A program made the position numbers and the translations under genes. The notes beneath the pieces were generated by a model. The model ran no database searches. It was not told the DNA's origin and saw only the letters and a program-made list of their open reading frames with translations. DNA of 64,000 bases from positions 137,952,033-138,016,032 of the forward strand of contig OZ024931.1 in the NCBI GenBank assembly GCA_964017235.1, written 5' to 3'. This DNA is from Sabellastarte sp. h YS-2021. Its lineage: Eukaryota; Annelida; Polychaeta; Sabellida; Sabellidae. Positions 1,228-48,949 of the stretch are shown here, piece after piece; the first letter of the stretch is position 1; each line of letters opens with the position of its first letter.

Positions 1228-2349
1228 ATACTCTGTCCTCCTGCCCAGTCATTGTCCCCACATGATTGAAGTAGACTTTCAGTAGGTCTCATTGATATTT
1301 GGCCTCCCTTGATGCATTTCTCAAGTTCTCATGGTGTCCCTGTTCCCCCAGTCTGGACGTGGTGCTAGTATGTTGTCGGCTGGAGTGGGTGGTCTGGCTC
1401 CTCCCCCCTGATAGCTGCTCAGCATGTTATACCACACATGTTAACACAATGTCTCTGACTACTTTTGGCCTCTGCTCCATGGTGGTGAACAGTGCCCTGA
1501 ATCTCTTGACAAGTATACCAAATGAGTTCTCGACCACCGTCCTCCCCCTGGATATCCTGTAGTTGACTCTTCTCTCCTTCTTAGTCAGTTGTTGTCTACT
1601 GTAAGGATTGATCAGCCAATGCATCAGGGTAAATTGATCGTCCTCCAGCAGGAAGTAGTGTAGATCTGGCCCCTCAGGTACAAGTGGCTCAGATGACGAT
1701 AGTCCCCATGTTCCAATCTCAATTCTTCTTCTCAGTTTGCTGTGGTTGAATATCTGAGCATCAGATGATGACCACTGGCCCTCATGTTGGCCCACAGGAA
1801 CTTGTAATCTGCATCAACTAAAATACCAGGGAGAAGTAGCCCTTGGAGTTAAAATATTCACTGCCTGACTTCTTAGGCTTCTTTGTAGCAATGTGTTTTC
1901 TATCAAGTGCACCAACTGCATGGGGAACATTCCATCTGTTTCTAAATCTTTTTTCGATTTTCTTCCAGTCTTTAGGATCAGTAGGACACGTATGTTGTGT
2001 CATGTACTCATGTTGAAATTCTTTTAAAATGGCTTTGCAGACCTGGGGGGCAAATTTGCAGATGGTGGTTCTTCCAACCATCCAGTGGTATTGCAATGAA
2101 GTGTAGCTTTCCCCTGTGGACAAGTGTCTTAAAGTAGCTGCCAGTTTTAATCTGACTTCCAGTGGCTTCCTGAAGTTGGTAATTGACTTCCTGAAATTGG
2201 GGGTCATTCTTTCATCAATCAAATAAAAAAATGCTGATTGCATCCTGGAAAAGTTTCCGTAGCCCAGTATGTCAGTAGTGATCAACTCGTCTAAGAATGT
2301 TCTGTAGCACCCTTTCTCTTCCCTGTAAAATAGCTAGGGCATGACTCAT
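1228..2349 (-). pseudogene. PIF/Harbinger transposase (DDE_Tnp_4), frameshifted
   Basis: A nuclease that would cut and paste its own element. An ATG at 2349 opens the frame (MSHALAILQG); reading frame changes follow near 2,280 and again near 1,800, and there are stops near the C-terminal end (for example at 1427), so it is dead as written. The middle reads MTPNFRKSITNFRKPLEVRL, then TGESYTSLQYHWMVGRTT, the helix-turn-helix-like region usual in HARBI1-like proteins. All three catalytic acidic positions are still visible: D in VGALDRKHI, D in SSDAQIFNHS, and E in VVENSFGILVKRF. The tail (NLRNASREAKYQ...DLLKVYFNHVG...) is also typical. About 370 codons in total, the normal size for the family. 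A second, differently damaged copy lies at 16.4-17.0 kb plus 36.8 kb. Confidence 0.88.
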
Positions 2350-2945
2350 GGCTTCTGTTGATTTCTTCTCCTTCTGGGTGGTAGTGGTGATGCTGGCTGG
2401 GAAGGTGCTGGGTTCTGCTGTCTTCTGTGTCTTGAAATTATCATGTACAATAAAAAATTAACTCAATAAAAACAAAAGACCCTCAAGTGATCTATCAGTT
2501 GCTCTTGATGTGTTCCTGTCATCTTTGAAGTGTGAAATGAATGGCACATCACAGGGGAGGGGTTTATATAGTGTCATATGGATCCCGATTCTGGATCCCA
2601 GTTTTTAGATACTGATCACAAAAACAATCAGTTCTGTATGAAGGGTCGTGAGCATGCTCCCAGCTTGTCTGTTTGTCTTTATGGCTTGTCTGTTTGTGAT
2701 CTGGCTTGTCTGTTAGGGGTTTAAGGTTTGTCGTGCAACCTCTACAACTGGCCATTTAAAAACATCCCCGACCCTACAACTTGTTGGGATGCTCATAATG
2801 TCAGTAACTATACAGACCTTTTTGGGATTTGATAACTGACTCAGAATTTTCTAGCACACTTTCCCATGACCCAATAACTTTTTGAACTGACCCTAGTGTC
2901 GTAAGGGTCAGTTGTAGGGTCAGCTCCATGGACCACATGTAAAAT
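2350..2945 (-). mobile_element. 5' noncoding part of the first Harbinger element
   Basis: Upstream of the transposase start. It shares scattered similarity with the region to the right of the second Harbinger piece (36.85-37.39 kb): both have a GGATCC-containing block, a TTGTTGGGAT block and a stretch with 'ttttagcaca/ttctagcaca' followed by 'gacccta/accctag'. A short word ggcttgtctgttt recurs three times near 2,665-2,715. The outer end, around 2,880-2,930, is rich in gggtcag/ctgaccc inverted words and may be near the terminal repeat, but I could not pair it with a left end. Confidence 0.45.
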
Positions 2946-2949
2946 GGAT

Positions 2950-8695: not shown

Positions 8696-8699
8696 TTTC

Positions 8700-12000: not shown

Positions 12001-12043
12001 TAAATACACCACATTCATCTTTCAATTTGAAATGTGCTGATGT

Positions 12044-15914: not shown

Positions 15915-16424
15915 ATGAAATACAGACAATGAAAAAAAAACAGATTTCATCAGATCACTGAATTCAGGGGTATCAAGACTGGGTACTTTGAAACATAGTC
16001 TATATAAAGGCTGTACATGTTGAACCTCCTAGAACCCATTTGCACAAGTTGTATCTTGCAGAGGATAGATTTTGTTGGCAATATTTGGTGAAATTTTGTA
16101 GAAAGTAGACACTTGTTCCAGCTACAAATTGAAACAGGTTTATGGTAATAATTTAAATCAGTTATTTGTGGAAATATTGATTGAAAGTTAAATTTTATAA
16201 TATAAAGGCTTGAACATATTTTATTATTGAGTCCCACAGAGTACATTCTCTTTCAATGTCAAATGCAACCAACATGCAATGCTAACTTATATTGATCTTG
16301 TATTAGTAAGTAGGCAGGGTGGGGGTGGGGGTTACTAGATCATTTTGGAATTTTACACAATGACAAAATTGTAATTTGCTGGTGCAGACTTGTTGGCCCA
16401 AGTTTTCTAACATTGTCTCCCCCC
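15915..16424. other. Unique spacer between the two tandem arrays
   Basis: No genes. The part at about 15,985-16,110 is a diverged relative (roughly two-thirds identical by eye over ~80 bases) of about 10,745-10,870 and 14,616-14,741, sharing 'tacatgt', 'gca(a/c)aagttgta' and 'ttgttggc..tatttggtg'. A G-rich run lies at 16,316-16,330. Confidence 0.45.
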
Positions 16425-17037
16425 TCCAGGTTCAGGTGTTGTAAGGACCAAGCTGCCATCCTTGATCATCTCTCTCAAATCGCTTCTGTTTAAAATCTGT
16501 GCATCTGTACAGGAACCACTTCACCCACAGTCTATCCACTGGAATCTGTATTTTGCACTGAATAGGGCCTGTCGAACCAAGGAAAAGAAGCTCTTGTAGT
16601 TGAAATAGTCACTGTCTGATTTATTTAGCTTTTTCATGGTGATATGTTTCCTGTCTATGACCCCTATAGTGTGGGGACATTCCATTTGGTCCTGAATTTC
16701 TCCTGTATTATTTTCCAGTCATTAGGGCTATCAGGGCAATGCATATATTTGTCTTGGAATTCAGCAAGGATGGCTTGGCAGACCTGGGAGACTACTTTGC
16801 AGATGGTGGTGTGGGACCAACCAGACAGTGATACTGCAAGGATTTGGAAGTGTGTCCAGTGACCAGGTGTCTCATGGTTATTGCCAGTTTAAGTACAACC
16901 TCTAATGGCGTCTTGAAAGTGGTGACTGACTTCTTGATGCGAGAGTATATGCATTCTTTGATGAGGTCAATAAAAGCAGGGACATCCTGACGAAATTCTG
17001 GTATCCTGGGATATTGGTGTATATGAGGTCGGGCAGT
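16425..17037 (-). pseudogene. Second Harbinger transposase, left piece
   Basis: Minus-strand peptides match the family: PHIHQYPRIPEF..., MRHLVTGHTSKSLQYHCLVG (helix-turn-helix-like region), then a WNVP block, and further left a stretch matching the 'CTDAQIFNRSDLREMIKDGS' part of Harbinger transposases in mixed frames. The C-terminal third, including the catalytic E block, is absent beyond ~16,425. An LTR begins at 17,038 and the N-terminal side of the same transposase resumes at 36,783, so the retroelement complex was inserted into this transposon. Confidence 0.82.
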
Positions 17038-18042
17038 TGTTACGGTCACGGGCAAGCACGGTAGCAATTACCGGTTGTCTTAAAGTTGTAACAGAAAAAG
17101 CAAAAAGTTAAACTTAACAAATTTATTTAACAATTAACAATAATGATTACAGTCAACTGGTATGCTCTTAACCAAACACACTAATACAATAATAAGATCT
17201 AGCTGACCTAACCACTGAGATTAAGAGTTAAGTTTATCCGCCGTATCCAGCAATCTGTTCTGTAATCCATCCTGTGGTGTATTCCATGATCTGTCCAATG
17301 TCCTGTGATCTGTCCAATGTTCACTCACACACAGATGTCTATATCCTGTGACCTGTCCCACACTCAACAACACAAAAGGTCCTTGTCCTGCTATCCTTTA
17401 CATATCCAGTCACACAGAATGTCTGTTTGGAGATATTTAGAGAGTTAACACAACTGTACAGTCTGCTCCAAGATATGGACAATGTCCAAAATGCAGTAAA
17501 TCCACTCTCTGTCATATGAATGTACAATATCCAAAGTATAATAGATCTGTCCAGACAATGTATCCAGTTCACTCCAGTAAAAAATTCACAGTAATATAAG
17601 CATACATTATATTCCAAAACACAATAGCTCTCCTTATTGTCAGCGAATACAAAGTTCACTTGTGGTCAGATGTACATTCCTTATATACATTCACAGAATC
17701 CTCTGGAATTGTACAGAACCAACTCAAAACAAACTTAAGCAACCTAGATTGAATGAGGAAGTTCTAGAACCTATGGTCTTCCCTCAAATCTATAAATAGT
17801 ATCACTGAGGTTAACCTAGAGGAATTCCCCCCAGTCCATAAATGGATATATAAATACTATAAAACATAACACAAAAATCAATAACTCCCTTACTTCAGAT
17901 GTTAACACATAAAAAGAATCAATAACACAGTTATCCTTTATGACAACATACAAACATAAAGCCTTGATTAAACAATGCATTAATATAGTGCCCAGTGAAT
18001 GTAACACACAATGTACTGATATAGTGTCCAATATATGTAACA
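17038..18042 (-). repeat. LTR, array unit 1 (3' LTR side)
   Basis: 1,005 bp, TG...CA on both strands in the usual way (tgttacggtc...atatgtaaca). Adjoins a polypurine tract at 18043-18057 (minus strand ctttaaggggggagg), the expected neighbour of a 3' LTR. Minus-strand frames of 75-106 codons inside it are accidental. Confidence 0.9.
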
Positions 18043-18057
18043 CCTCCCCCCTTAAAG
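18043..18057 (-). other. Polypurine tract of the fossil element (unit 1)
   Basis: On the minus strand ctttaaggggggagg directly abuts the start of the LTR (tgttacatat). Copies stand at the same place in units 2-4 (from 21,978, 25,913 and 29,848). Confidence 0.8.
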
Positions 18058-18334
18058 AAAAATTTTGGAGGCCAAGGGGTTACAAAATTTTACAAAAATA
18101 TACATATGTACAGGTAATAACCTTTCTCAAAACATCTTTATCTAAATACAAAAGTAAAATTGGTACCATGTGTAACCTTCATAAACTTACTAATTACAGA
18201 TATACAAATTACACTTCAAATACAGCTTCTGGACAGAGCATATCCGTGCAGATGCCACATTTTACTTTTTCAAAGTCCTATTTACACACTGAATTCCTAT
18301 CATTAACAGTGTTTTAAATAATAGCCATGAAAAG

Positions 18335-19420
18335 CTATGTTATACCTCTCTCAAAATATGGTTTTACCATAGTTATTTCACACAAGTGGTTTGAATGTCT
18401 GTTATCACAGTTTCTAATAGCCCAATGGAGGGTTTCTACTGTCTGGGTCGCTAGGTATGACCCTAGATTTCTGGCCTGCAGTTTATTCAATTGGCCAGGT
18501 GATGACACTGAAACCTTGTCTCCAGGATTGAAGACAGGATTCTGCAATTCTTTATCAAAAAGCATCTTCATTTTTTTGACTGAGAATTTTTTCAAATTTT
18601 GTTGCGCCAGCTCACAAGAGTTCTTCAACTTATCTCTGAACTTTGAGACATAATCTAACAGATTTAGACTCTCGGTGTTCTCAGATAACCAATTTTCATT
18701 CAACAGCTTGAGAGGACCACGGACTGAATGGCTAAAAACCAACTCAAAGGGACTAAAGCCTAAAGACTCTTGAACAGACTCTCTAACTGCAAACAATAAT
18801 AAGCTGATGCCTTCATCCCAATCTTTTTCATTGTCTAAACAATATGTCCTAATCATATTCTTCAAAGTGGAATGGAACCTTTCAAGTGCACCTTGGGATT
18901 CTGGGTGATAAGTACTAGATTTGATCTGTTTGGCACCTAGTTGAAATACAACCTGTTGAAATAGTCCTGACATAAAATTGGACCCTTGATCTGACTGGAT
19001 CTCTTTTGGTAAGCCAACTAAAGTAAAGAAATTAACCAGAGCTTTTGAGATTTTGGGAGCTGTTATGTTGGTCAAAGGTATGGCTTCGGGAAATCTGGTC
19101 AAAGCGCACATAATGGTCAAGAGATATTGGTTTCTGGATTTAGTTTTTGGTAAGGGGCCTACACAGACAATTATCACTTTGCTAAATGGTTCCTAAAATG
19201 CTGGAATAGGTTTGAGAGGAGCTACCAGAATTTTTTGGTTTGGCTTCCCTACCATTTGACAAGTGTGACAAGTCTTGCAAAATTCTGCCACACAGTGCCG
19301 AATTTGAGGCCAATAGAAATGTTTGGTTATCTTGTTGTAAGTTTTGTTGATGCCTAAATGGCCACCCATTGGAGATTCATGAGCCAATTTCAATATCTCA
19401 CTTTGGTACACTTTTGGCAC
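18335..19420 (-). mobile_element. Integrase part, array unit 1 (fossil)
   Basis: Zinc-binding start (LAHESPMGGHLGINK, then CKTCHTCQ: the HHCC set), a DDE core with FPEAIPLTNITAP, QSDQGSNFMSG (second acid) and YHPESQGALERFH (third acid), and a C-terminal part with FNPGDKVSV. Family wording is that of KRBA2/Gmr1-like gypsy integrases. This part is broken; the element is a fossil. Confidence 0.85.
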
Positions 19421-19480
19421 AACAACCTGGTGTACTACTGACCGTTCTTCAGATGCAGGGACATTTGGTGGCCTCCACTT

Positions 19481-20432
19481 TCACATAAGCACACCATTTC
19501 CGACGTAATAGCCTACAGAGACCTTGTCTAGTTCTATTGGCGGTAAGACCAACTTGAATAGAGAAGCTAATTCAGGGTCATTTTCCTGCTCTGAAATCAA
19601 TTTTGATTTTGAAAGTGATACATCCTGACAGTCAATTGAGTCTTGTTTTTCAGAATCTATCCTAGCCTTGGGATGAGTGTCACTGGTATTCTGCACATCA
19701 TGGTCATAGTTGTTTAAGAATGTATCTGATAAATCAGCTAAGACATCTGTAGATTGTTTACAATCTTTTGGTCCTTCTTGGGCCTTTTTGGCCATAGCTC
19801 GAGTCACAGCACAGGAGGGAAAAATACCAGGAAAAACCTCTTCTAGTTTCTCAGTGCTAACAAAAGTGATCAGCTTAGAAGTAACCTTAGGATCAGCAAC
19901 TACCTTTCCACCTGCAAGATCATTTCCCAACAACAAAGATACCCCATTTAATGGGTAAAGTGGGCCTGGTACCCACAACAACAGAACCAGTAACTAAGTC
20001 TGATACTAAGTTGACCTTATGCAAGGGAACGTTCACACAGCCTCCTTCAATACCTTGCCCAATGACACTCTCACCAGTAGATGTGCTTACACTCAATAGT
20101 AATACACCTTCTAAAAGTAAGGACTGAGTAGCTCCAGTGTCTCTTAATATCTTAATGGGGACCTGACTGGAACTACTTTCCAAGGATACAAAACCCTCAG
20201 ACACAAAAGGTTTGAACTCTTCCCTAATAATCTCAGACTTGTCTAAACCAGTACTATACTCTGCTCTATTGGAATTGGAACGCCAGTTAGACTTGCTAGA
20301 CACAAAGGCGTGGGGTGTTGCCTCCTTTTCTCTTCTCTTCTTTAAGAGCCAACAGTCAGACATAACATGCCCAGGTTTCTTACAATAGTGGCAAACAGGA
20401 GCAAAGGATCTGGGTTTCCTATCCTTACTCAT
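19481..20432 (-). mobile_element. Protease and gag CCHC part, array unit 1 (fossil)
   Basis: A CCHC knuckle (CHYCKKPGHVMSDC), an aspartic protease active site in ILRDTGATQSLLLEG, a protease end (GVSLLLGNDLAGGKVV), then an acidic linker leading to the integrase. The unit boundary falls just upstream of the knuckle, so the rest of gag is missing from this unit. Equivalent parts are at 23416-24367, 27351-28302 and 31284-32235. Confidence 0.82.
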
Positions 20433-20965
20433 CTGTACAGGAACCACTTCACCCACAGTCTATCCACTGGAATCTGTATTTTGCACTGAATAGGGCCTGT
20501 CGAACCAAGGAAAAGAAGCTCTTGTAGTTGAAATAGTCACTGTCTGATTTATTTAGCTTTTTCATGGTGATATGTTTCCTGTCTATGACCCCTATAGTGT
20601 GGGGACATTCCATTTGGTCCTGAATTTCTCCTGTATTATTTTCCAGTCATTAGGGCTATCAGGGCAATGCATATATTTGTCTTGGAATTCAGCAAGGATG
20701 GCTTGGCAGACCTGGGAGACTACTTTGCAGATGGTGGTGTGGGACCAACCAGACAGTGATACTGCAAGGATTTGGAAGTGTGTCCAGTGACCAGGTGTCT
20801 CATGGTTATTGCCAGTTTAAGTACAACCTCTAATGGCGTCCTGAAAGTGGTGACTGACTTCTTGATGCGAGAATATATGCATTCTTTGATGAGGTCAATA
20901 AAAGCAGGGACATCCTGATGAAATTCTGGTATCCTGGGATATTGGTGTATATGAGGTCGGGCAGT
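20433..20965 (-). mobile_element. Harbinger transposase fragment, array copy 2
   Basis: 533-bp copy of 16505-17037, nearly identical, carried along as part of the array unit and not an independent insertion. The same fragment recurs at 24368-24900 and 28303-28835. Confidence 0.9.
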
Positions 20966-21977
20966 TGTTACGGTCACGGGCAAGCACGGTAGCAATTACC
21001 GGTTGTCTTAAAGTTGTAACAGAAAAAGCAAAAAGTTAAACTTAACAAAGTTATTCAACAATTAACAATAATGATTACAGTCAACTGGTATGCTCTTAAC
21101 CAAACACACTAATACAATAATAAGATCTAGCTGACCTAACCACTGAGATTAAGAGTTAAGTTTATCCGCCGTATCCAGCAATCTGTTCTGTAATCCGTCC
21201 TGTGGTGTATTCCATGATCTGTCCAATGTCCTGTGATCTGTCCAATGTTCACTCACACACAGATGTCTATATCCTGTGACCTGTCCCATGCTCAACAACA
21301 CAAAAGGTCCTTGTCCTGCTATCCTTTACATATCCAGTCACACAGAATGTCTGTTTGGAGATATTTAGAGAGTTAACACAACTGTACAGTCTGCTCCAAG
21401 ATATGGACAATGTCCAAAATGCAGTAAATCCACTCTCTGTCATATGAATGTACAATATCCAAAATATCCAAAGTATAATAGATCTGTCCAGACAATGTAT
21501 CCAGTTCACTCCAGTAAAAAATTCACAGTAATATAAGCATATATTATATTCCAAAACACAATAGCTCTCCTTATTGTCAGCGACTATAAAGTTCACTTGT
21601 GGTCAGATGTACATTCCTTTTTCATTCACAGAATCCTCTGGAATTGTACAGAACCAACTCAAAACAAACTTAAGCAACCTAGATTGAATGAGGAAGTTCT
21701 AGAACCTATGGTCTTCCCTCAAATCTATAAATAGTATCACTGTGGTTAACCTAGAGGAATTCCCCCCAGTCCATAAATGGATATATAAATACTATAAAAC
21801 ATAACACAAAAATCAATAACTCCCTTACTTCAGATGTTAACACATAAAAAGAATCAATAACACAGTTATCCTTTATGACAACATACAAACATAAAGCCTT
21901 GATTAAACAATGCATTAATATAGTGCCCAGTGAATGTAACACACAATGTACTGATATAGTGTCCAATATATGTAACA
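20966..21977 (-). repeat. LTR, array unit 2
   Basis: 1,012 bp copy. Same ends and same adjoining polypurine tract as the unit 1 LTR. Confidence 0.9.
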
Positions 21978-22269
21978 CCTCCCCCCTTAAAGAAAAATTT
22001 TGGAGGCCAAGGGGTTACAAAATTTTACAAAAATATACATATGTACAGGTAATAACCTTTCTCAAAACATCTTTATCTAAATACAAAAGTAAAATTGGTA
22101 CCATGTGTAACCTTCATAAACTTACTAATTACAGATATACAAATTACACTTCAAATACAGCTTCTGGACAGAGCATATCCGTGCAGATGCCACATTTTAC
22201 TTTTTCAAAGTCCTATTTACACACTGAATTCCTATCATTAACAGTGTTTTAAATAATAGCCATGAAAAG

Positions 22270-23355
22270 CTATGTTATACCTCTCTCAAAATATGGTTTT
22301 ACCATAGTTATTTCACACAAGTGGTTTGAATGTCTGTTATCACAGTTTCTAATAGCCCAATGGAGGGTTTCTACTGTCTGGGTCGCTAGGTATGACCCTA
22401 GATTTCTGGCCTGCAGTTTATTCAATTGGCCAGGTGATGACACTGAAACCTTGTCTCCAGGATTGAAGACAGGATTCTGCAATTCTTTATCAAAAAGCAT
22501 CTTCATTTTTTTGACTGAGAAATTTTTCAAATTTTGTTGCGCCAGCTCACAAGAGTTCTTCAACTTATCTCTGAACTTTGAGACATAATCTAACAGATTT
22601 AGACTCTCGGTGTTCTCAGATAACCAATTTTCATTCAACAGCTTGAGAGGACCACGGACTGAATGGCTAAAAACCAACTCAAAGGGACTAAAGCCTAAAG
22701 ACTCTTGAACAGACTCTCTAACTGCAAACAATAATAAGCTGATGCCTTCATCCCAATCTTTTTCATTATCTAAACAATATGTCCTAATCATATTCTTCAA
22801 AGTGGAATGGAACCTTTCAAGTGCACCTTGGGATTCTGGGTGATAAGTACTAGATTTGATCTGTTTGGCACCTAGTTGAAATACAACCTGTTGAAATAGT
22901 CCTGACATAAAATTGGACCCTTGATCTGACTGGATCTCTTTTGGTAAGCCAACTAAAGTAAAGAAATTAACCAGAGCTTTTGAGATTTTGGGAGCTGTTA
23001 TGTTGGTCAAAGGTATGGCTTCGGGAAATCTGGTCAAAGCGCACATAATGGTCAAGAGATATTGGTTTCTGGATTTAGTTTTTGGTAAGGGGCCTACACA
23101 GACAATTATCACTTTGCTAAATGGTTCCTAAAATGCTGGAATAGGTTTGAGAGGAGCTACCAGAATTTTTTGGTTTGGCTTCCCTACCATTTGACAAGTG
23201 TGACAAGTCTTGCAAAATTCTGCCACACAGTGCCGAATTTGAGGCCAATAGAAATGTTTGGTTATCTTGTTGTAAGTTTTGTTGATGCCTAAATGGCCAC
23301 CCATTGGAGATTCATGAGCCAATTTCAATATCTCACTTTGGTACACTTTTGGCAC
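22270..23355 (-). mobile_element. Integrase part, array unit 2 (fossil)
   Basis: Almost identical copy of the unit 1 integrase part, with the same zinc-binding and DDE blocks. Confidence 0.85.
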
Positions 23356-23415
23356 AACAACCTGGTGTACTACTGACCGTTCTTCAGATGCAGGGACATT
23401 TGGTGGCCTCCACTT

Positions 23416-24367
23416 TCACATAAGCACACCATTTCTGACGTAATAGCCTACAGAGACCTTGTCTAGTTCTATTGGCGGTAAGACCAACTTGAATAGAGAA
23501 GCTAATTCAGGGTCATTTTCCTGCTCTGAAATCAATTTTGATTTTGAAAGTGATACATCTTGACAGTCAATTGAGTCTTGTTTTTCAGAATCTATCCTAG
23601 CCTTGGGATGAGTGTCACTGGTATTCTGCACATCATGGTCATAGTTGTTTAAGAATGTATCTGATAAATCAGCTAAGACATCTGTAGATTGTTTACAATC
23701 TTTTGGTCCTTCTTGGGCCTTTTTGGCCATAGCTCGAGTCACAGCACAGGAGGGAAAAATACCAGGAAAAACCTCTTCTAGTTTCTCAGTGCTAACAAAA
23801 GTGATCAGCTTAGAAGTAACCTTAGGATCAGCAACTACCTTTCCACCTGCAAGATCATTTCCCAACAACAAAGATACCCCATTTAATGGGTAAAGTGGGC
23901 CTGGTACCCACAACAACAGAACCAGTAACTAAGTCTGATACTAAGTTGACCTTATGCAAGGGAACGTTCACACAGCCTCCTTCAATACCTTGCCCAATGA
24001 CACTCTCACCAGTAGATGTGCTTACACTCAATAGTAATACACCTTCTAAAAGTAAGGACTGAGTAGCTCCAGTGTCTCTTAATATCTTAATGGGGACCTG
24101 ACTGGAACTACTTTCCAAGGATACAAAACCCTCAGACACAAAAGGTTTGAACTCTTCCTTAATAATCTCAGACTTGTCTAAACCAGTACTACACTCTGCT
24201 CTATTGGGATTTGAGCGCCAGTTAGACTTGCTAGACACAAAGGCGTGGGGTGTTGCCTCCTTTTCTCTTCTCTTCTTTAAGAGCCAACAGTCAGACATAA
24301 CATGCCCAGGTTTCTTACAATAGTGGCAAACAGGAGCAAAGGATCTGGGTTTCCTATCCTTACTCAT
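23416..24367 (-). mobile_element. Protease and gag CCHC part, array unit 2 (fossil)
   Basis: Same parts as in unit 1; shares several base variants with unit 4 near 24,160-24,230. Confidence 0.82.
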
Positions 24368-24900
24368 CTGTACAGGAACCACTTCACCCACAGTCTATCC
24401 ACTGGAATCTGTATTTTGCACTGAATAGGGCCTGTCGAACCAAGGAAAAGAAGCTCTTGTAGTTGAAATAGTCACTGTCTGATTTATTTAGCTTTTTCAT
24501 GGTGATATGTTTCCTGTCTATGACCCCTATAGTGTGGGGACATTCCATTTGGTCCTGAATTTCTCCTGTATTATTTTCCAGTCATTAGGGCTATCAGGGC
24601 AATGCATATATTTGTCTTGGAATTCAGCAAGGATGGCTTGGCAGACCTGGGAGACTACTTTGCAGATGGTGGTGTGGGACCAACCAGACAGTGATACTGC
24701 AAGGATTTGGAAGTGTGTCCAGTGACCAGGTGTCTCATGGTTATTGCCAGTTTAAGTACAACCTCTAATGGCGTCCTGAAAGTGGTGACTGACTTCTTGA
24801 TGCGAGAATATATGCATTCTTTGATGAGGTCAATAAAAGCAGGGACATCCTGATGAAATTCTGGTATCCTGGGATATTGGTGTATATGAGGTCGGGCAGT
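24368..24900 (-). mobile_element. Harbinger transposase fragment, array copy 3
   Basis: Third copy of the 533-bp Harbinger fragment, differing by only a few bases from copy 2. Confidence 0.9.
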
Positions 24901-25912
24901 TGTTACGGTCACGGGCAAGCACGGTAGCAATTACCGGTTGTCTTAAAGTTGTAACAGAAAAAGCAAAAAGTTAAACTTAACAAAGTTATTCAACAATTAA
25001 CAATAATGATTACAGTCAACTGGTATGCTCTTAACCAAACACACTAATACAATAATAAGATCTAGCTGACCTAACCACTGAGATTAAGAGTTAAGTTTAT
25101 CCGCCGTATCCAGCAATCTGTTCTGTAATCCGTCCTGTGGTGTATTCCATGATCTGTCCAATGTCCTGTGATCTGTCCAATGTTCACTCACACACAGATG
25201 TCTATATCCTGTGACCTGTCCCATGCTCAACAACACAAAAGGTCCTTGTCCTGCTATCCTTTACATATCCAGTCACACAGAATGTCTGTTTGGAGATATT
25301 TAGAGAGTTAACACAACTGTACAGTCTGCTCCAAGATATGGACAATGTCCAAAATGCAGTAAATCCACTCTCTGTCATATGAATGTACAATATCCAAAAT
25401 ATCCAAAGTATAATAGATCTGTCCAGACAATGTATCCAGTTCACTCCAGTAAAAAATTCACAGTAATATAAGCATATATTATATTCCAAAACACAATAGC
25501 TCTCCTTATTGTCAGCGACTATAAAGTTCACTTGTGGTCAGATGTACATTCCTTTTTCATTCACAGAATCCTCTGGAATTGTACAGAACCAACTCAAAAC
25601 AAACTTAAGCAACCTAGATTGAATGAGGAAGTTCTAGAACCTATGGTCTTCCCTCAAATCTATAAATAGTATCACTGAGGTTAACCTAGAGGAATTCCCC
25701 CCAGTCCATAAATGGATATATAAATACTATAAAACATAACACAAAAATCAATAACTCCCTTACTTCAGATGTTAACACATAAAAAGAATCAATAACACAG
25801 TTATCCTTTATGACAACATACTAACATAAAGCCTTGATTAAACAATGCATTAATATAGTGCCCAGTGAATGTAACACACAATGTACTGATATAGTGTCCA
25901 ATATATGTAACA
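24901..25912 (-). repeat. LTR, array unit 3
   Basis: 1,012 bp copy, nearly identical to the LTRs in units 2 and 4. Confidence 0.9.
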
Positions 25913-26204
25913 CCTCCCCCCTTAAAGAAAAATTTTGGAGGCCAAGGGGTTACAAAATTTTACAAAAATATACATATGTACAGGTAATAACCTTTCTCAA
26001 AACATCTTTATCTAAATACAAAAGTAAAATTGGTACCATGTGTAACCTTCATAAACTTACTAATTACAGATATACAAATTACACTTCAAATACAGCTTCT
26101 GGACAGAGCATATCCGTGCAGATGCCACATTTTACTTTTTCAAAGTCCTATTTACACACTGAATTCCTATCATTAACAGTGTTTTAAATAATAGCCATGA
26201 AAAG

Positions 26205-27290
26205 CTATGTTATACCTCTCTCAAAATATGGTTTTACCATAGTTATTTCACACAAGTGGTTTGAATGTCTGTTATCACAGTTTCTAATAGCCCAATGGAG
26301 GGTTTCTACTGTCTGGGTCGCTAGGTATGACCCTAGATTTCTGGCCTGCAGTTTATTCAATTGGCCAGGTGATGACACTGAAACCTTGTCTCCAGGATTG
26401 AAGACAGGATTCTGCAATTCTTTATCAAAAAGCATCTTCATTTTTTTGACTGAGAATTTTTTCAAATTTTGTTGCGCCAGCTCACAAGAGTTCTTCAACT
26501 TATCTCTGAACTTTGAGACATAATCTAACAGATTTAGACTCTCGGTGTTCTCAGATAACCAATTTTCATTCAACAGCTTGAGAGGACCACGGACTGAATG
26601 GCTAAAAACCAACTCAAAGGGACTAAAGCCTAAAGACTCTTGAACAGACTCTCTAACTGCAAACAATAATAAGCTGATGCCTTCATCCCAATCTTTTTCA
26701 TTGTCTAAACAATATGTCCTAATCATATTCTTCAAAGTGGAATGGAACCTTTCAAGTGCACCTTGGGATTCTGGGTGATAAGTACTAGATTTGATCTGTT
26801 TGGCACCTAGTTGAAATACAACCTGTTGAAATAGTCCTGACATAAAATTGGACCCTTGATCTGACTGGATCTCTTTTGGTAAGCCAACTAAAGTAAAGAA
26901 ATTAACCAGAGCTTTTGAGATTTTGGGAGCTGTTATGTTGGTCAAAGGTATGGCTTCGGGAAATCTGGTCAAAGCGCACATAATGGTCAAGAGATATTGG
27001 TTTCTGGATTTAGTTTTTGGTAAGGGGCCTACACAGACAATTATCACTTTGCTAAATGGTTCCTAAAATGCTGGAATAGGTTTGAGAGGAGCTACCAGAA
27101 TTTTTTGGTTTGGCTTCCCTACCATTTGACAAGTGTGACAAGTCTTGCAAAATTCTGCCACACAGTGCCGAATTTGAGGCCAATAGAAATGTTTGGTTAT
27201 CTTGTTGTAAGTTTTGTTGATGCCTAAATGGCCACCCATTGGAGATTCATGAGCCAATTTCAATATCTCACTTTGGTACACTTTTGGCAC
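26205..27290 (-). mobile_element. Integrase part, array unit 3 (fossil)
   Basis: Almost identical copy of the unit 1 integrase part. Confidence 0.85.
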
Positions 27291-27350
27291 AACAACCTGG
27301 TGTACTACTGACCGTTCTTCAGATGCAGGGACATTTGGTGGCCTCCACTT

Positions 27351-28302
27351 TCACATAAGCACACCATTTCTGACGTAATAGCCTACAGAGACCTTGTCTA
27401 GTTCTATTGGCGGTAAGACCAACTTGAATAGAGAAGCTAATTCAGGGTCATTTTCCTGCTCTGAAATCAATTTTGATTTTGAAAGTGATACATCTTGACA
27501 GTCAATTGAGTCTTGTTTTTCAGAATCTATCCTAGCCTTGGGATGAGTGTCACTGGTATTCTGCACATCATGGTCATAGTTGTTTAAGAATGTATCTGAT
27601 AAATCAGCTAAGACATCTGTAGATTGTTTACAATCTTTTGGTCCTTCTTGGGCCTTTTTGGCCATAGCTCGAGTCACAGCACAGGAGGGAAAAATACCAG
27701 GAAAAACCTCTTCTAGTTTCTCAGTGCTAACAAAAGTGATCAGCTTAGAAGTAACCTTAGGATCAGCAACTACCTTTCCACCTCCAAGATCATTTCCCAA
27801 CAACAAAGATACCCCATTTAATGGGTAAAGTGGGCCTGGTACCCACAACAACAGAACCAGTAACTAAGTCTGATACTAAGTTGACCTTATGCAAGGGAAC
27901 GTTCACACAGCCTCCTTCAATACCTTGCCCAATGACACTCTCACCAGTAGATGTGCTTACACTCAATAGTAATACACCTTCTAAAAGTAAGGACTGAGTA
28001 GCTCCAGTGTCTCTTAATATCTTAATGGGGACCTGACTGGAACTACTTTCCAAGGATACAAAACCCTCAGACACAAAAGGTTTGAACTCTTCCCTAATAA
28101 TCTCAGACTTGTCTAAACCAGTACTATACTCTGCTCTATTGGGATTTGAACGCCAGTTAGACTTGCTAGACACAAAGGCGTGGGGTGTTGCCTCCTTTTC
28201 TCTTCTCTTCTTTAAGAGCCAACAGTCAGACATAACATGCCCAGGTTTCTTACAATAGTGGCAAACAGGAGCAAAGGATCTGGGTTTCCTATCCTTACTC
28301 AT
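27351..28302 (-). mobile_element. Protease and gag CCHC part, array unit 3 (fossil)
   Basis: Same parts; shares variants with unit 1 near 28,090-28,150. Confidence 0.82.
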
Positions 28303-28835
28303 CTGTACAGGAACCACTTCACCCACAGTCTATCCACTGGAATCTGTATTTTGCACTGAATAGGGCCTGTCGAACCAAGGAAAAGAAGCTCTTGTAGTTG
28401 AAATAGTCACTGTCTGATTTATTTAGCTTTTTCATGGTGATATGTTTCCTGTCTATGACCCCTATAGTGTGGGGACATTCCATTTGGTCCTGAATTTCTC
28501 CTGTATTATTTTCCAGTCATTAGGGCTATCAGGGCAATGCATATATTTGTCTTGGAATTCAGCAAGGATGGCTTGGCAGACCTGGGAGACTACTTTGCAG
28601 ATGGTGGTGTGGGACCAACCAGACAGTGATACTGCAAGGATTTGGAAGTGTGTCCAGTGACCAGGTGTCTCATGGTTATTGCCAGTTTAAGTACAACCTC
28701 TAATGGCGTCCTGAAAGTGGTGACTGACTTCTTGATGCGAGAATATATGCATTCTTTGATGAGGTCAATAAAAGCAGGGACATCCTGATGAAATTCTGGT
28801 ATCCTGGGATATTGGTGTATATGAGGTCGGGCAGT
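28303..28835 (-). mobile_element. Harbinger transposase fragment, array copy 4
   Basis: Fourth copy of the 533-bp Harbinger fragment, bounded by the gag junction on the left and an LTR on the right. Confidence 0.9.
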
Positions 28836-29847
28836 TGTTACGGTCACGGGCAAGCACGGTAGCAATTACCGGTTGTCTTAAAGTTGTAACAGAAAAAGCA
28901 AAAAGTTAAACTTAACAAAGTTATTCAACAATTAACAATAATGATTACAGTCAACTGGTATGCTCTTAACCAAACACACTAATACAATAATAAGATCTAG
29001 CTGACCTAACCACTGAGATTAAGAGTTAAGTTTATCCGCCGTATCCAGCAATCTGTTCTGTAATCCGTCCTGTGGTGTATTCCATGATCTGTCCAATGTC
29101 CTGTGATCTGTCCAATGTTCACTCACACACAGATGTCTATATCCTGTGACCTGTCCCATGCTCAACAACACAAAAGGTCCTTGTCCTGCTATCCTTTACA
29201 TATCCAGTCACACAGAATGTCTGTTTGGAGATATTTAGAGAGTTAACACAACTGTACAGTCTGCTCCAAGATATGGACAATGTCCAAAATGCAGTAAATC
29301 CACTCTCTGTCATATGAATGTACAATATCCAAAATATCCAAAGTATAATAGATCTGTCCAGACAATGTATCCAGTTCACTCCAGTAAAAAATTCACAGTA
29401 ATATAAGCATATATTATATTCCAAAACACAATAGCTCTCCTTATTGTCAGCGACTATAAAGTTCACTTGTGGTCAGATGTACATTCCTTTTTCATTCACA
29501 GAATCCTCTGGAATTGTACAGAACCAACTCAAAACAAACTTAAGCAACCTAGATTGAATGAGGAAGTTCTAGAACCTATGGTCTTCCCTCAAATCTATAA
29601 ATAGTATCACTGAGGTTAACCTAGAGGAATTCCCCCCAGTCCATAAATGGATATATAAATACTATAAAACATAACACAAAAATCAATAACTCCCTTACTT
29701 CAGATGTTAACACATAAAAAGAATCAATAACACAGTTATCCTTTATGACAACATACAAACATAAAGCCTTGATTAAACAATGCATTAATATAGTGCCCAG
29801 TGAATGTAACACACAATGTACTGATATAGTGTCCAATATATGTAACA
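28836..29847 (-). repeat. LTR, array unit 4
   Basis: 1,012 bp copy, nearly identical to the LTRs in units 2 and 3; beside the polypurine tract at 29,848. Confidence 0.9.
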
Positions 29848-30139
29848 CCTCCCCCCTTAAAGAAAAATTTTGGAGGCCAAGGGGTTACAAAATTTTACAA
29901 AAATATACATATGTACAGGTAATAACCTTTCTCAAAACATCTTTATCTAAATACAAAAGTAAAATTGGTACCATGTGTAACCTTCATAAACTTACTAATT
30001 ACAGATATACAAATTACACTTCAAATACAGCTTCTGGACAGAGCATATCCGTGCAGATGCCACATTTTACTTTTTCAAAGTCCTATTTACACACTGAATT
30101 CCTATCATTAACAGTGTTTTAAATAATAGCCATGAAAAG

Positions 30140-31223
30140 CTATGTTATACCTCTCTCAAAATATGGTTTTACCATAGTTATTTCACACAAGTGGTTTGAA
30201 TGTCTGTTATCACAGTTTCTAATAGCCCAATGGAGGGTTTCTACTGTCTGGGTCACTAGGTATGACCCTAGATTTCTGGCCTGCAGTTTATTCAATTGGC
30301 CAGGTGATGACACTGAAACCTTGTCTCCAGGATTGAAGACAGGATTCTGCAATTCTTTATCAAAAAGCATCTTCATTTTTGACTGAGAATTTTTTCAAAT
30401 TTTGTTGCGCCAGCTCACAAGAGTTCTTCAACTTATCTCTGAACTTTGAGACATAATCTAACAGATTTAGACTCTCGGTGTTCTCAGATAACCAATTTTC
30501 ATTCAACAGCTTGAGAGGACCACGGACTGAATGGCCAAAAACCAACTCAAAGGGACTAAAGCCTAAAGACTCTTGAACAGACTCTCTAACTGCAAACAAT
30601 AATAAGCTGATGCCTTCATCCCAATCTTTTTCATTGTCTAAACAATATGTCCTAATCATATTCTTCAAAGTGGAATGGAACCTTTCAAGTGCACCTTGGG
30701 ATTCTGGGTGATAAGCACTAGATTTGATCTGTTTGGCACCTAGTTGAAATACAACCTGCTGAAATAGTCCTGACATAAAATTGGACCCTTGATCTGACTG
30801 GATCTCTTTTGGTAAGCCAACTAAAGTAAAGAAATTAACCAGAGCTTTTGAGATTTTGGGAGCTGTTATGTTGGTCAAAGGTATGGCTTCGGGAAATCTG
30901 GTCAAAGCGCACATAATGGTCAAGAGATATTGGTTTCTGGATTTAGTTTTTGGTAAGGGGCCTACACAGACAATTATCACTTTGCTAAATGGTTCCTAAA
31001 ATGCTGGAATAGGTTTGAGAGGAGCTACCAGAATTTTTTGGTTTGGCTTCCCTACCATTTGACAAGTGTGACAAGTCTTGCAAAATTCTGCCACACAGTG
31101 CCGAATTTGAGGCCAATAGAAATGTTTGGTTATCTTGTTGTAAGTTTTGTTGATGCCTAAATGGCCACCCATTGGAGATTCATGAGCCAATTTCAATATC
31201 TCACTTTGGTACACTTTTGGCAC
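30140..31223 (-). mobile_element. Integrase part, array unit 4 (fossil)
   Basis: Copy belonging to the right-most unit, with a few private differences from units 1-3. It is the one contiguous with the parent protease and gag. Confidence 0.85.
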
Positions 31224-32201
31224 AACAATCTGGTGTACTACTGACCGTTCTTCAGATGCAGGGACGTTTGGTGGCCTCCACTTTCACATAAGCACACCAT
31301 TTCTGACGTAATAGCCTACAGGGACCTTGTCTAGCTCTATTGGCGGTAAGACCAACTTGAATAGATAAGCTAATTCGGGGTCATTTTCCTGCTCTGAAAT
31401 CAATTTTGATTTTGAAAGTGATACATCTTGACAGTCAATTGAGTCTTGTTTTTCAGAATCTATCCTAGCCTTGGGATGAGTGTCACTGGTATTCTGCACA
31501 TCATGGTCATAGTTGTTTAAGAATGTATCTGATAAATCAGCTAAGACATCTGTAGATTGTTTACAATCTTTTGGTCCTTCTTGGGCCTTTTTGGCCATAG
31601 CTCGAGTCACAGCACAGGAGGGAAAAATACCAGGAAAAACCTCTTCTAGTTTCTCAGTGCTAACAAAAGTGATCAGCTTAGAAGTAACCTTAGGATCAGC
31701 AACTACCTTTCCACCTGCAAGATCATTTCCCAACAACAAAGATACCCCATTTAATGGGTAAAGTGGGCCTGGTACCCACAACAACAGAACCAGTAACTAA
31801 GTCTGATACTAAGTTGACCTTATGCAAGGGAATGTTCACACAGCCTCCTTCAATACCTTGCCCAATGACACTCTCACCAGTAGATGTGCTTACACTCAAT
31901 AGTAATACACCTTCTAAAAGTAAGGACTGAGTAGCTCCAGTGTCTCTTAATATCTTAATGGGGACCTGACTGGAACTACTTTCCAAGGATACAAAACCCT
32001 CAGACACAAAAGGTTTGAACTCTTCCTTAATAATCTCAGACTTGTCTAAACCAGTACTACACTCTGCTCTATTGGGATTTGAGCGCCAGTTAGACTTGCT
32101 AGACACAAAGGCGTGGGGTGTTGCCTCCTTTTCTCTTCTCTTCTTTAAGAGCCAACAGTCAGACATAACATGCCCAGGTTTCTTACAATAGTGGCAAACA
32201 G

Positions 32202-33497
32202 GAGCAAAGGATCTGGGTTTCCTATCCTTACTCATTGTCTGATTTGAAGTTTGACCCTTATCTGAACTCTTTTCTGGAGCTACATTTTCAGATTTCTTTC
32301 CTATTTCTGGATAAGACTTTTTAGCAGGACTGAAAGACTTATTCTTGTTGAAAGTGGACTTGTGAGTTAGCGCATAGTCATCAGCATAAGCTGCTGCTTT
32401 TGCCAAATTTTCAACTTTTTGTTCATCTAGATAGGTTTTAATGTCATCACGAACACACCTTTTGAACTCTTCAATCAAAATAACTTGCCTAAGTTTTTCA
32501 AAGTCTGTACCTACTTCCCTAGAATTACACCATCTGTCAAAGTACACTTCTTTCTCATGGGCAAATTCAGCATGACTTTGACTTTCTTGTTTACAATAAT
32601 TTCTGAATTTTTGACGATATGCTTCTGGTACCAACTCATATGCTTTCAAAATAGCATTTTTGACTGAGTTATAGTCCACACATTCAGAAATTGGCAAAGC
32701 CATGTATGCCTCTTGGGCCTTTCCCCTCAAAACACTTTGCAGCAATAAAGGCCACTGGTCTGGAGGCCATTTCAAAATTTTGAGCTACTCTTTCAAAGTG
32801 TTGAAAGTACTTATCGACCTCTGACTCATTAAAAGGTGGTACCAGTCAAGCATGAGCAAAGGATCTGGGTTTCCTATCCTTACTCATAGTCTGATTTGAG
32901 GTTTGACCCTTATCTGAACTCTTTTCCGGAGCTATATTTTCAGATTTTTTTCCTATTTCTGGATAAGACTTTTTAGCAGGACCAAAGGACTTATTCTTGT
33001 TGAAAGTGGACGTGTGAGTTAGCGCATAGTCATCAGCATAAGCTGCTGCTTTTGCAAAATTTTCAACTTTTTGTTCATCTAGATAGGTTTTAATGTTATC
33101 ACGAACACACCTTTTGAACTCTTCAATCAAAATAACTTGCCTAAGTTTTTCAAAGTCTGTACCTACTTCCCTAGAATTACACCATCTGTCAAAGTACACT
33201 TCTTTCTCATGGGCAAATTCAACATGAGTTTGACTTTCTTGTTTACGATAATTTCTGAATCTTTGACAATATGCTTCTGGTACCAACTCATATGCTTTCA
33301 AAATAGCATTTTTGACAGAATTATAGTCCACACATTCAGAAATTGGCAAAGCCATGTATGCCTCCTGGCCTTTCCCCTCAAAGCACTTTGTAGCAATAAA
33401 GGGCATTGGTCTGTGGGCCATCTCAAATTTTGAGCTACTCTTTCAAAGTGTTGAAAGTATTTATCGACCTCCAACTCATTAAAAGGTGGTACCAGTC
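32202..33497 (-). repeat. ~650-bp direct duplication within gag
   Basis: 32,202-32,847 and 32,854-33,497 match along their length (from 'gagcaaaggatctgggtttc' to 'ggtggtaccagtc') with a few percent difference, so this duplication is older than the four-unit array. Confidence 0.88.
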
Positions 33498-34099: not shown

Positions 34100-34117
34100 A
34101 TCCCGGACGAGCCCCCA
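34100..34117 (-). other. Primer-binding site matching tRNA-Pro
   Basis: On the minus strand these 18 bases read TGGGGGCTCGTCCGGGAT, the proline-tRNA primer site well known from murine leukaemia viruses. It lies 7 bases inside the LTR at 34,125, the expected place. Confidence 0.85.
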
Positions 34118-34124
34118 ATTTTCC

Positions 34125-35154
34125 TGTTACGGTCACGGGCAAGCGCGGTAGCAATTACCGGTTGTCTTCAAGTTGTAACAGAAAAAGCAAAATGTTAAAC
34201 TTAACAAATTTATTTAATAGTCACCAATAACGATTACAGTCAACTGGTATGCTCCTAACCAAACACACATTAATACAATTAATAAGATCTAGCTGACCTG
34301 ACCACTGAGACTAAGAGTTAAGTTTATCCGCCGTATCCAGCAATCTGTTCTGTAATCCATCCTGTGGTATGTTCTGTGATCTGTCAAATGTCCTGTGGTC
34401 TGTCCTGTGATCTGTCCAATGTTCACTCACACACGGATATCTATATCCTGTGACCTGTCTCACACTCAACAACACAAAAGGTTCTTGTCCTGCTATCCTT
34501 TATATATCCAGTCACACAGAATGTCTGTCTGGAGATATTTAGAGAGTTAACACAACTGTAGTGTCTGCTCCAAGATGTGGACAATGTCCAAAATGCAGTA
34601 AATCCACTCTCTGTTATATGAATGTACAATATCCAAAATATCCAAAGTATAATAAATCTGTCCAGATGATGTATCCAGTTCACTCCAGTAGAAGTTCACA
34701 GTAATATAAGCATATATTATATTCCAAAACACAATAGCTCTCCTTATAGCAAGCGAATACAAAGTTCACTTGTGGTCAGATGTACATTCCTTATATACAT
34801 TCACAGAAACCTCTGGAATTGTACAGAACCAACTCAAAAGAAACTTAAGTAATCTAGACCAAATGAAGAAGTTCTAGAACCTATGGGCTTCCCCCAAATC
34901 TATAAATAATACCACTGAGGTTAACCTAGAGGAATTCCCCCCAGTCCATAAATGGGTCAATAAATAAATACTATAACATATAACACAAAATCAATAACTC
35001 CCTTACTTTAAATGTTAACACATAAAAGAATCAATAACACAACTATCTTTTATGATAATATACAAACATAAAACTTAGATTAGACAATGCACTAATACAG
35101 TGTCCAATATATGTAGCATACAATGTACTGATATAGTGTCCAATATATGTAACA
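34125..35154 (-). repeat. LTR at the gag side (5' LTR)
   Basis: 1,030 bp, tgttacggtc...atatgtaaca. By eye about 6% different from the unit 1 LTR over the first ~330 bases, more than the outermost LTR is. It directly adjoins the primer site and gag. Confidence 0.88.
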
Positions 35155-35750
35155 CACACTAATACAATAATAAGATCTGGCTGACCTGACCACTGAGATT
35201 AAGAGTTAAGTTTATCCGCTGTATCCAGCTATCTGTTCTGTAATCTGTCCTGTGGTGTGTTCCGTGATCTGTCCAATGTCCTGTGGTCTGTCCTGTGATC
35301 TGTCCAATGTTCACTCACACACAGATGTCTATATCCTGTGACCTGTCCCACGCTAAACAACACAAAAGGTCCTTGTCCTGCTATCCTTTACATATCCAGT
35401 CACACAGAATGTCTGTCTGGAGATATTTAGAGAGTTAACACAACTGTACAGTCTGCTCCAAGATATGGACAATGTCCAAAATGCAGTAAATCCACTCTCT
35501 GTCATATGTATGTACAAAATCCAAAATATCCAAAGTATAATAGATCTGTCCAGACAATGTATCCAGTTCACTCCAGTAAAAAGTTCACAGTAATATAAGC
35601 ATATATTATATTCCAAAACACAATAGCTCTCCTTATAGCAAGCGAATACAAAGTTCACTTGTGGTCAGATGTACATTCCTTATATACATTCACAGAAACC
35701 TCTGGAATTGTACAGAACCAACTCAAAATAAACTTAAGATCTAGCTGACC
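35155..35750 (-). repeat. Partial LTR
   Basis: Internal LTR sequence without either LTR end, running from the 'cacactaatacaataataag' part to 'caaaataaacttaag'. It joins the end of one LTR to a scrap of leader ('aattttcc') beside the next. Confidence 0.85.
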
Positions 35751-35759
35751 TAATTTTCC

Positions 35760-36782
35760 TGTTACGGTCACGGGAAAGCACGGTAGCAATTACCGGTTGT
35801 CTTCAAGTTGTAACAGAAAAAGCAAAAAGTTAAACTTAGCAAATTTATTCAACAATTAACAATAATGATTACAGTCAACTGGTATGCTCTTAACCAAACA
35901 CACTAATACAATAATAAGATCTGGCTGACCTGACCACTGAGATTAAGAGTTAAGTTTATCTGCCGAATCCAGCCATCTGTTCTGTAATCCGTCCTGTGGT
36001 GTATTCCGTGATCTGTCCAATGTCCTGTGGCCTGTCCTGTGATCTGTCCAATGTTCACTCACACACAGATGTCTATATCCTGTGACCTATCCCACGCTAA
36101 ACAACACAAAAGGTCCTTGTCCTGCTATCCTTTACATATCCAGTCACACAAAATGTCTGTCTGGACATATTTAGAGAGTTAACACAACTGTACAGTCTGC
36201 TCCAAGATATGGACAATGTCCAAAATGCAGTAAATCCACTCTCTGTCATATGAATGTACAATATCCAAAATATCCAAAGTATAATAGATCTGTCCAGACA
36301 ATGTATCCAGTTCACTCCAGTAAAAAGTTTACAGTAATATAAGCATATATTATATTCCAAAACACAATAGCTCTCCTTATAGCCAGCGAATACAAAGTTC
36401 ACTTGTGGTCAGATGTACATTCCTTGTATACATTCACAGAATCCTCTGGAATTGTACAGAACCAACTCAAAACAAACTTAAGCAACCTAGATTGAATGAG
36501 GAAGTTCTAGAACCTATGGGCTTCCCTCAAATCTATAAATAGTATCACTGAGGTTAACCTAGAGGAATTCCCCCAGTCCATAAATGGATATATAAATACT
36601 ATAAAACATAACACAAAAATCAATAACTCCCTTACTTCAGATGTTAACACATAAAAAGAATCAATAACACAGTTATCCTTTATGACAGCATACAAACATA
36701 AAGCCTTGATTAAACAATGCATTAATATAGTGCCCAGTGAATGTAACACACAATGTATTGATATAGTGTCCAATATATGTAA
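35760..36782 (-). repeat. Outermost right LTR
   Basis: About 1,023 bp. Preceded by 'aattttcc', the same leader word that lies next to the LTR at 34,125, so it was once the 5' LTR of an element. It resembles the unit 1 LTR more closely than the 34,125 LTR does, especially in its right half. Harbinger sequence resumes at 36,783. Confidence 0.87.
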
Positions 36783-37390
36783 GACAATATGCTGCTGTAG
36801 CATTCTTTTTCTTGTCTTTAAAGGATCCAGGGCATGGCCCAGGATTTGGGTACCTTAATTCTCCTCCTGGGGGCTGGCTGGGGCTAAGGTTGTGGTGATA
36901 GCTGTAGGGCAGGTGATGGTGGTGGGTTCAAATGTGTTTTCCCATCAAGATGGAAATTAAAATATTAAAGTTAATGAAGGCCAAAAGTACCCTAAGCTGA
37001 TGTTGTAAGTCTCTGTGATGAATAGCTGGCATCTTTGCAGTGACAAATGATGTTTTTTTACAGTCAGAGGTGGTATATACAGTTTTGAACCAATTCCAAC
37101 TCTGGATCCAAGCTCCAGGATTTAATCAGTCTAGTCAGGGTGAGTCTTGAAAATAATCCAGTCCTCTTTGTTTGATATTACTGCTTGTTAGGTGTTACAG
37201 CTTGTCGCAGTAGTTTTGTGTCATTGTTGGGATCTTGATCCAGACAAGCCAGTATGTTCTACGTCCTGTCGGGAAGATGTAACTGACCCAGCATTTTAGC
37301 ACACTTTTTTGTGGTTTTTGTCCCCGATTCCATGACTTTTGCAACCAACCCTAGAGTTGTAGAGTCAGTTATACTGTTGGTTATAGTGGA
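36783..37390 (-). mobile_element. Second Harbinger element, right piece
   Basis: Begins with the N-terminal side of the transposase (minus-strand words matching HALDPLKTRKRMLQQHI against HALAILQGRERVLQNI of the first copy), then 5' noncoding sequence that parallels 2,400-2,930: a ggatcc block, 'ttgttgggat', 'ttttagcacactttttt', and 'accctagagttgtagagtcag'. It is the other half of the element at 16,425-17,037. Confidence 0.7.
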
Positions 37391-44200: not shown

Positions 44201-44559
44201 CCTCTCATAAAAAGCAGCCAAGCGAGTCAAGCAGGAGTGGACATAGTGGAGATCTGGGAATCCACAGCTGCCGTCAGGCACTGCTGGAATCCACTAAAAT
44301 CACCTCCCTCTATCCCCGAAAACCTATAATTTGGACATGGTGAGATTCCAAAGTTACAAACAATACCTATGGATTATAATCATACATGAACAATGTCAAT
44401 ATGAATCCAGCAGTTTGAACAACACCGTCATATGGACCCGTCTATGGACCCACAATTCAGCTGACTGATGATTGCTACATTAAACACATTGTATTACCTC
44501 CTAATTGTTCAGCCACAAGTGCAGATCAATGGGACATTGCATCTAAAGAATGGCAGAAC

Positions 44560-48900: not shown

Positions 48901-48949
48901 ATGAAAATAATGCCATTCTATTCTCCACAATCACAGAAAATTGGTTAGA

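Follow-up and report, generated by a model that had tools for sequence, protein, structure and literature searches.

A tandem array of a nested LTR retroelement and Harbinger segment in Sabellastarte, probably founded at a 3-bp microhomology and enlarged by recombination

We describe a tandem array in a 64,000-bp stretch of the genome of the annelid Sabellastarte sp. h YS-2021 (C5:137952033-138016032; the genome comprises 1.786 Gb in 647 contigs). This whole stretch is called the window and contains no unknown nucleotides (N). Four units, each made of a piece of a Harbinger transposase gene and part of a Ty3/gypsy-type long terminal repeat (LTR) retroelement, follow one another head to tail. 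The array is very probably a tandem duplication of a transposon nest that was founded at a microhomology and enlarged by recombination between units. A fuller account adds that 3 bp of microhomology acting over 3.9 kb founded a two-unit array, that crossover enlarged it, and that the retroelement belongs to a young family without reverse transcriptase (RT), which is moved in trans by RT-bearing partners about 97% alike and has grown in tandem elsewhere too. We hold this fuller account with moderate confidence, slightly lowered because gene conversion is possible and because the matches of a unit-long query omitted the window's own units.

To delimit the array we aligned the window to itself and mapped the junctions between units, which are as follows:

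16502..20429, minus strand: unit 1, 3,928 bp, left edge of the array; the retroelement and the Harbinger piece both lie on the minus strand
20430..24364, minus strand: unit 2, 3,935 bp, mosaic with a unit 4-like left part and a unit 1-like right part
24365..28299, minus strand: unit 3, 3,935 bp, mosaic of the unit 2 type
28300..32232, minus strand: unit 4, 3,933 bp, right edge of the array, running on into the remaining gag

At a shift of one unit 11.8 kb could be aligned with 99.5% identity, and chance is therefore excluded as the source of the repeat. A sequence-only reading of the window had claimed four units and proposed a self dot plot as a check; our self-alignment displays the array, and the four lengths are exactly those it gave. 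The span it reported (16505-32235) differs from the mapped one (16502-32232) solely in the end to which the 3-bp common CAT is assigned, and its 533-bp Harbinger fragment is exact (16505-17037). Pairs of units differ by 8-31 mismatches (0.2-0.8%) and 0-13 gap columns over 3,937 columns, so its figure of 1% divergence or less holds as well. From right to left each unit contains the end of gag, the protease region, the integrase core, a polypurine tract, a 1.0-kb LTR and the Harbinger piece, which agrees with the content it had listed. The units adjoin directly in a single register with nothing in between. An Rfam search returned nothing at gathering scores.

The joint that founded the array can be located to the base. 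Two features are needed here:

20423..20441, no strand: first internal junction, running from gag through CAT to Harbinger; the identical 60 bp occur again at 24365 and 28300
31723..32784, minus strand: gag open frame, 353 amino acids, SCAN domain and zinc knuckle, spanning the right border of the array

All three internal junctions are identical across 60 bp and overlap both parents by 3 bp (CAT). At the left border of the array the Harbinger homology continues across, and at the right border the gag frame does so: a single frame (31723-32784) runs from the zinc knuckle to the SCAN domain, and unit 4 is thus continuous with the parental gag. Because the CAT junctions are identical and both outer borders are continuous with parent sequence, we infer an in-place tandem duplication. 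The earlier claim of a duplication that crossed the insertion border is supported by the same observations. The joint may have been formed by end joining, template switching or a reintegrated circle, which would be indistinguishable by joint and borders. LTR-LTR recombination was ruled out as the founding step since the unit borders are not inside LTRs.

The retroelement is nested in a Harbinger transposase gene, for which the relevant features are:

16410..17037, minus strand: middle part of the Harbinger transposase; 16502-17037 lies in unit 1 and 16410-16501 extends to the left of the array
36785..37032, minus strand: N-terminal part of the Harbinger transposase, across the LTR element from the middle part; 36785-36788 is the CAAT target duplication
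17034..17037, no strand: left copy of the target duplication, CAGT, equal to the right copy CAAT at 3 of 4 bases
1352..2522, minus strand: Harbinger paralogue, uninterrupted at the insertion point and acting as an empty site

The Harbinger identity of the piece is established through homologues. As a query it returned 26 of them, 9 labelled PF13359 (DDE_Tnp_4); the direct match to PF13359 was weak (E 0.019, in one of the four window pieces scanned). A tblastn search with Harbinger relatives placed the middle part at 16422-17037, at the edge of the LTR element, and the N-terminal part at ∼36767-37032. The two flanks aligned to neighbouring parts of the paralogue, 16429-17006 to 1686-2264 with 64% identity and 36795-37112 to 2302-2601 with 65%. 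After one copy of the 4-bp duplication was removed, the joined flanks formed a single frame with no gap and one stop when compared with the relative P0128. The sequence-only reading had merely assumed that a retroelement was inserted in a Harbinger; the adjoining codons in one frame, the uninterrupted paralogue and the CAGT/CAAT duplication now show the nesting. PIF/Harbinger elements have terminal inverted repeats and a 3-bp target duplication. The C-terminal part of this one was not found to the left of ∼16410, and the element ends were not sought.

The retroelement itself lies on the minus strand, and its right side holds the remaining gag, a primer-binding-site-like stretch and a complex 5' LTR region up to 36784. 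We mapped the following parts:

17038..18042, minus strand: LTR of unit 1, reading TGTTAC...GTAACA on the plus strand
starts at 20966, 24901 and 28836, minus strand: LTRs of units 2, 3 and 4
18335..19192, minus strand: integrase open frame of unit 1, 285 amino acids, rve core PF00665, terminus ...RGIT
32195..33497, minus strand: 653-bp tandem duplication in gag, two SCAN domains, copies 94.9% identical
34100..34117, minus strand: primer-binding-site-like stretch adjoining the 5' LTR, which we take to be of the tRNA-Pro type
34125..35154, minus strand: inner 5' LTR, adjoining the stretch just listed and sharing 92-93% identity with the LTRs of the units
35155..35759, minus strand: internal LTR fragment (∼585 bp) and short joined pieces
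35760..36784, minus strand: LTR at the outer end of the insertion, sharing 97.3% identity with that of unit 1, terminus GTAAGA

Several hallmarks of Ty3/gypsy elements were observed: LTR ends of the TG...CA type, a polypurine tract, the primer-binding-site-like stretch and the short target duplication (3 of 4 bases). The terminus of the outer LTR reads GTAAGA where GTAACA would be expected from the unit LTR. The integrase frame has 285 amino acids in units 1-3 and 211 in unit 4. In the two units scanned, its core was above the Pfam cut-off for PF00665 (unit 1: E 3.8e-09; unit 4: E 2.7e-09), and the zinc knuckle was slightly under its own (20.6 and 19.8 versus 20.8 bits). The polypurine tract and LTR follow ∼290 bp after the integrase end with no RT between them. 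We found no RT match in the tested frames of the element, and there is no space for RT or ribonuclease H (RNase H) between integrase and LTR. The insertion is older than the duplication, since identity is 97.3% between the two outer LTRs (at 17038 and 35760) but 99.2-99.8% (by mismatch) between the units. The 653-bp duplication in gag also predates the array; two gag homologues (P0210 and P0245) have internal repeats with different borders, as judged by eye. The 5' LTR region (34125-36784) is scrambled and consists of an LTR, the 585-bp LTR fragment, short pieces and another LTR. Its inner LTR (34125) reaches only 92-93% similarity to the outer LTR and to those of the units, as though this region came from recombination between two elements.

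The variants among the units preserve a record of how the array grew. We polarised them against six outside copies of the family. Units 2, 3 and 4 have derived states in common in 10 columns, all of them at unit positions 621-1193, and units 1, 2 and 3 in 8 columns, all at unit positions 1956-3038. The two column sets do not interleave (p ≈ 2e-4 for 9 versus 7 events, with sites taken as independent), and for this reason we read units 2 and 3 as the left part of unit 4 combined with the right part of unit 1. A crossover misaligned by one unit between two founders would predict mosaics of exactly this kind. Private substitutions were observed as well, at least two each in unit 2 (1314 and 2339) and unit 3 (1458 and 3420), and private derived sites also occur in units 1 and 4. 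A simple branching history of the units was rejected, as LTR sites and integrase sites group the units oppositely.

We then searched the host genome for the hybrid unit. A 120-bp query across the junction gave three whole matches among those listed (40 of 1,307 candidates scored), all of them in the window; the other 37 matches listed cover the gag half only and all lie on C1 and C2. A unit-long query gave 39 listed matches (36 of 6,923 candidates scored), none extending more than 10 bases into the Harbinger part, which is weak evidence because the window's own units are missing among them. At this depth of search the hybrid unit appears not to have dispersed. Transposition of the hybrid was rejected, given that, among the matches listed, just the three sites in the window carried the junction in full. 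The sequence-only reading had held that tandem growth and not transposition multiplied the hybrid, and both the junction search and the mosaic middle units, built from the edge units, agree with this. The confinement to tandem growth applies to the hybrid only: the retroelement family transposes elsewhere, with target duplications.

The history that we propose starts with the insertion of a Ty3/gypsy-type LTR retroelement into the Harbinger transposase gene, which the flanks show. A point in gag would then have been joined via CAT to a Harbinger point 3.9 kb away and the segment doubled in place; the joint is observed, and a break-repair or template-switch event would be the repair route. Two founder units would subsequently have diverged, and an unequal crossover at unit position ∼1193-1956, as the mosaics suggest, would have given a middle unit that derives from the right founder on its left side and from the left founder on its right side. 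Further exchange or duplication would have added the second mosaic unit. We regard the array as a product of recombination, with an LTR in every unit, and we propose no function for it. Several points weigh against this history. The order test was devised after the pattern had been seen, and it treats clustered sites as independent. At columns 3730, 3763 and 3786 unit 2 sides with unit 4, which calls for a further exchange, and columns 412, 444 and 490 in the Harbinger part are not polarisable. The target duplication CAGT/CAAT agrees at 3 of 4 bases only, the number of units is the figure of the assembly, and mosaics could likewise arise through gene conversion, whether from unit to unit or from dispersed copies.

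This last process is the basis of an alternative with the same nest and joint, in which conversion and not unequal crossing-over made the mosaics. The LTR of unit 1 and the integrase region of unit 4 carry the states of outside copies, and dispersed family copies are abundant. Getting from two units to four would nevertheless still take a duplication or a crossing-over, and a single crossover accounts for both column blocks together; we therefore consider conversion unlikely, if not strongly so. The founding step might also have been different, with the segment excised, circularised at CAT and returned to its own site by recombination. Such a circle would leave an identical joint, identical borders and the same register, yet it takes more steps than duplicating the segment directly, and the matches listed for the junction query include no copy of the whole joint outside the window, which makes this route distinctly unlikely.

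The near-identity of the units raises the question of whether the assembler inflated the unit number, either of a shorter array or of two haplotypes that each carry fewer. A loop in the assembly graph through the 760 identical bases at 1193-1956 would also give units with a unit 4-like left and a unit 1-like right part. It would not, however, produce the private substitutions of units 2 and 3; units 1 and 4 have private derived sites of their own, the window is free of N, and the founding joint at least must be real. We judge an artefact improbable. Finally, the hybrid unit could be mobile as an element of its own, for example as an LTR-flanked stretch copied through RNA. A stretch of this kind does lie between neighbouring LTRs of the array, and the family does transpose elsewhere. 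This stretch does not include the element's primer-binding-site side, though, its whole joint was not matched outside the window among the junction matches listed, and the units abut directly in one register, so that we attach almost no probability to this explanation.

The retroelement of the window belongs to a family that is present elsewhere in the host genome:

L009-L012, L014-L026, L028 and L029, and window 18043-19192: family copies with gag, protease and integrase and no RT

With the unit-long query, integrase was joined directly to the LTR in 33 near-full rows at 29 loci among the matches listed. In the 19 copies examined the internal region measured 3.56-3.75 kb and the LTR pairs were 99.0-100% alike. 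A single open gag-protease-integrase frame of 1,044-1,098 residues was found in 14 of the 19 and was absent in 5. Target duplications were studied at 15 family loci: 8 showed a perfect 4-bp duplication, 4 a perfect 5-bp duplication and 2 matched at 4 of 5 bases. The remaining locus (L022) is without one, and its left flank resembles another family element. Among 59 integrase homologues with listed ends, 9 have the terminus ...RGIT of the window frame.

Two protein relatives, P0109 and P0113, have integrase before RT or RNase H; in P0113 the RVT_1 domain is slightly under the cut-off (27.3 versus 29.6 bits). We obtained 93 scored matches to P0113 in the host genome (of 18,106 candidates), all reaching residue 451 or 453 with 63-65% identity, and 87 of them are without a stop. 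One match with an internal stop (C2:101378075) overlaps locus L041; over 2,602 bp, reaching from gag through the first 108 residues of integrase, the DNA of this locus and that of an RT-less copy are 97.4% identical. On these comparisons the RT-less form is best read as a deletion derivative of RT-bearing elements, which such partners would mobilise in trans.

Tandem arrangements were also observed among these elements. Four pairs of loci (L009+L030, L010+L031, L011+L032 and L012+L033) are tandem RT-less copies with common LTRs and a period of about 4.7 kb, and in three such composites the outer flanks agree at 4, 3 and 4 of 4 positions. They look as if one insertion had grown by LTR-LTR exchange or as if a concatemer had entered. 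Some further gag matches recur about every 4.6 kb (on C1 intervals of 3.5 and 4.3 kb also occur), and RT-bearing elements about every 6.1 kb. The regularly spaced matches are located as follows:

G000:C1:1154286-1171446
C2:123053015 and 123057656
C14:84570526-84584011
C5:23187647-23201257
C3:126557422-126564837

Tandem growth seems to be recurrent in this LTR family.

The window contains a second tandem duplication at 8173-15915, with two units of 3,871 and 3,872 bp that are 99.6% identical. It starts in an old, oppositely oriented relic of the retroelement family described above, which is the sole sequence it has in common with the array, and the near-equal unit length is probably a coincidence. 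A predicted protein, P0147 (window 19920-20459 and its repeats), has a Harbinger-derived start followed by gag and protease, with three copies of the frame in the window; its cluster comprises 7 sequences, on a 512,705-bp contig. The plus strand at 44419-50965 bears fragments of another retrotransposon: Retrotrans_gag at 45292-45930, and at 48723-50054 an H2C2 integrase finger together with an RNase H end that scored below cut-off. An RT frame outside the studied element is located on the minus strand at 4211-5149 (RVT_1, E 5e-25). Short-period tandem repeats occur near the right end of the window, at 59272-59777 (44 bp), 61593-62409 (146 bp) and 63068-63999 (about 150 bp).

The origin of tandem repeats with large units is unsettled. 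At this locus one can read the joint with its 3-bp homology, the intact borders and the trace left by a later exchange, and a two-step model can therefore be tested in one locus and in populations. If our reading is true, the locus documents, base by base, one way in which a satellite can arise. An RT-less family beside RT-bearing partners may furthermore help to ask which retrotransposon proteins a copied element must itself supply. Among the titles and abstract openings covered by our literature search there was no description of this array or of an RT-less gag-protease-integrase family.

Non-autonomous LTR elements that are moved by partners are a known kind. The family resembles them in that a deletion form exists alongside RT-bearing elements of the same family, and differs in that an open gag-protease-integrase frame is kept in most of the copies examined. 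Integrase upstream of RT is given as a trait of the Gmr1 clade in the excerpted text of PMC8220671. The order of domains in P0109 and P0113, the latter with its 93 scored genomic matches, is Gmr1-like, whereas the window element and the related copies examined are without RT. In the excerpted part of a review, 'first steps' or two-step models of satellite origin have part of a transposon duplicated and then expanded by unequal crossing-over, and doubt is expressed that short flanking repeats can found large units, given the distance (PMC6947457). Partial duplication and, as we read it, unequal crossing-over are the same here, and a 3-bp homology bridges a distance of 3.9 kb; an array of four units is still a long way from a satellite. 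Tandem arrays of transposon nests, including an invader1->DM88 nest in the Figure 2 legend, are described for Drosophila melanogaster (Bergman et al. 2006, PMC1794594, as excerpted). As in those arrays, an element lies within an element and the nest was then multiplied head to tail. Unlike what the excerpt describes, the Sabellastarte unit is a partial segment over an insertion border, its joint is mapped to 3 bp and its growth can be read from variants. A tandem array of a transposon nest is thus of an already known kind, and what is unusual is the number of steps that are legible here.

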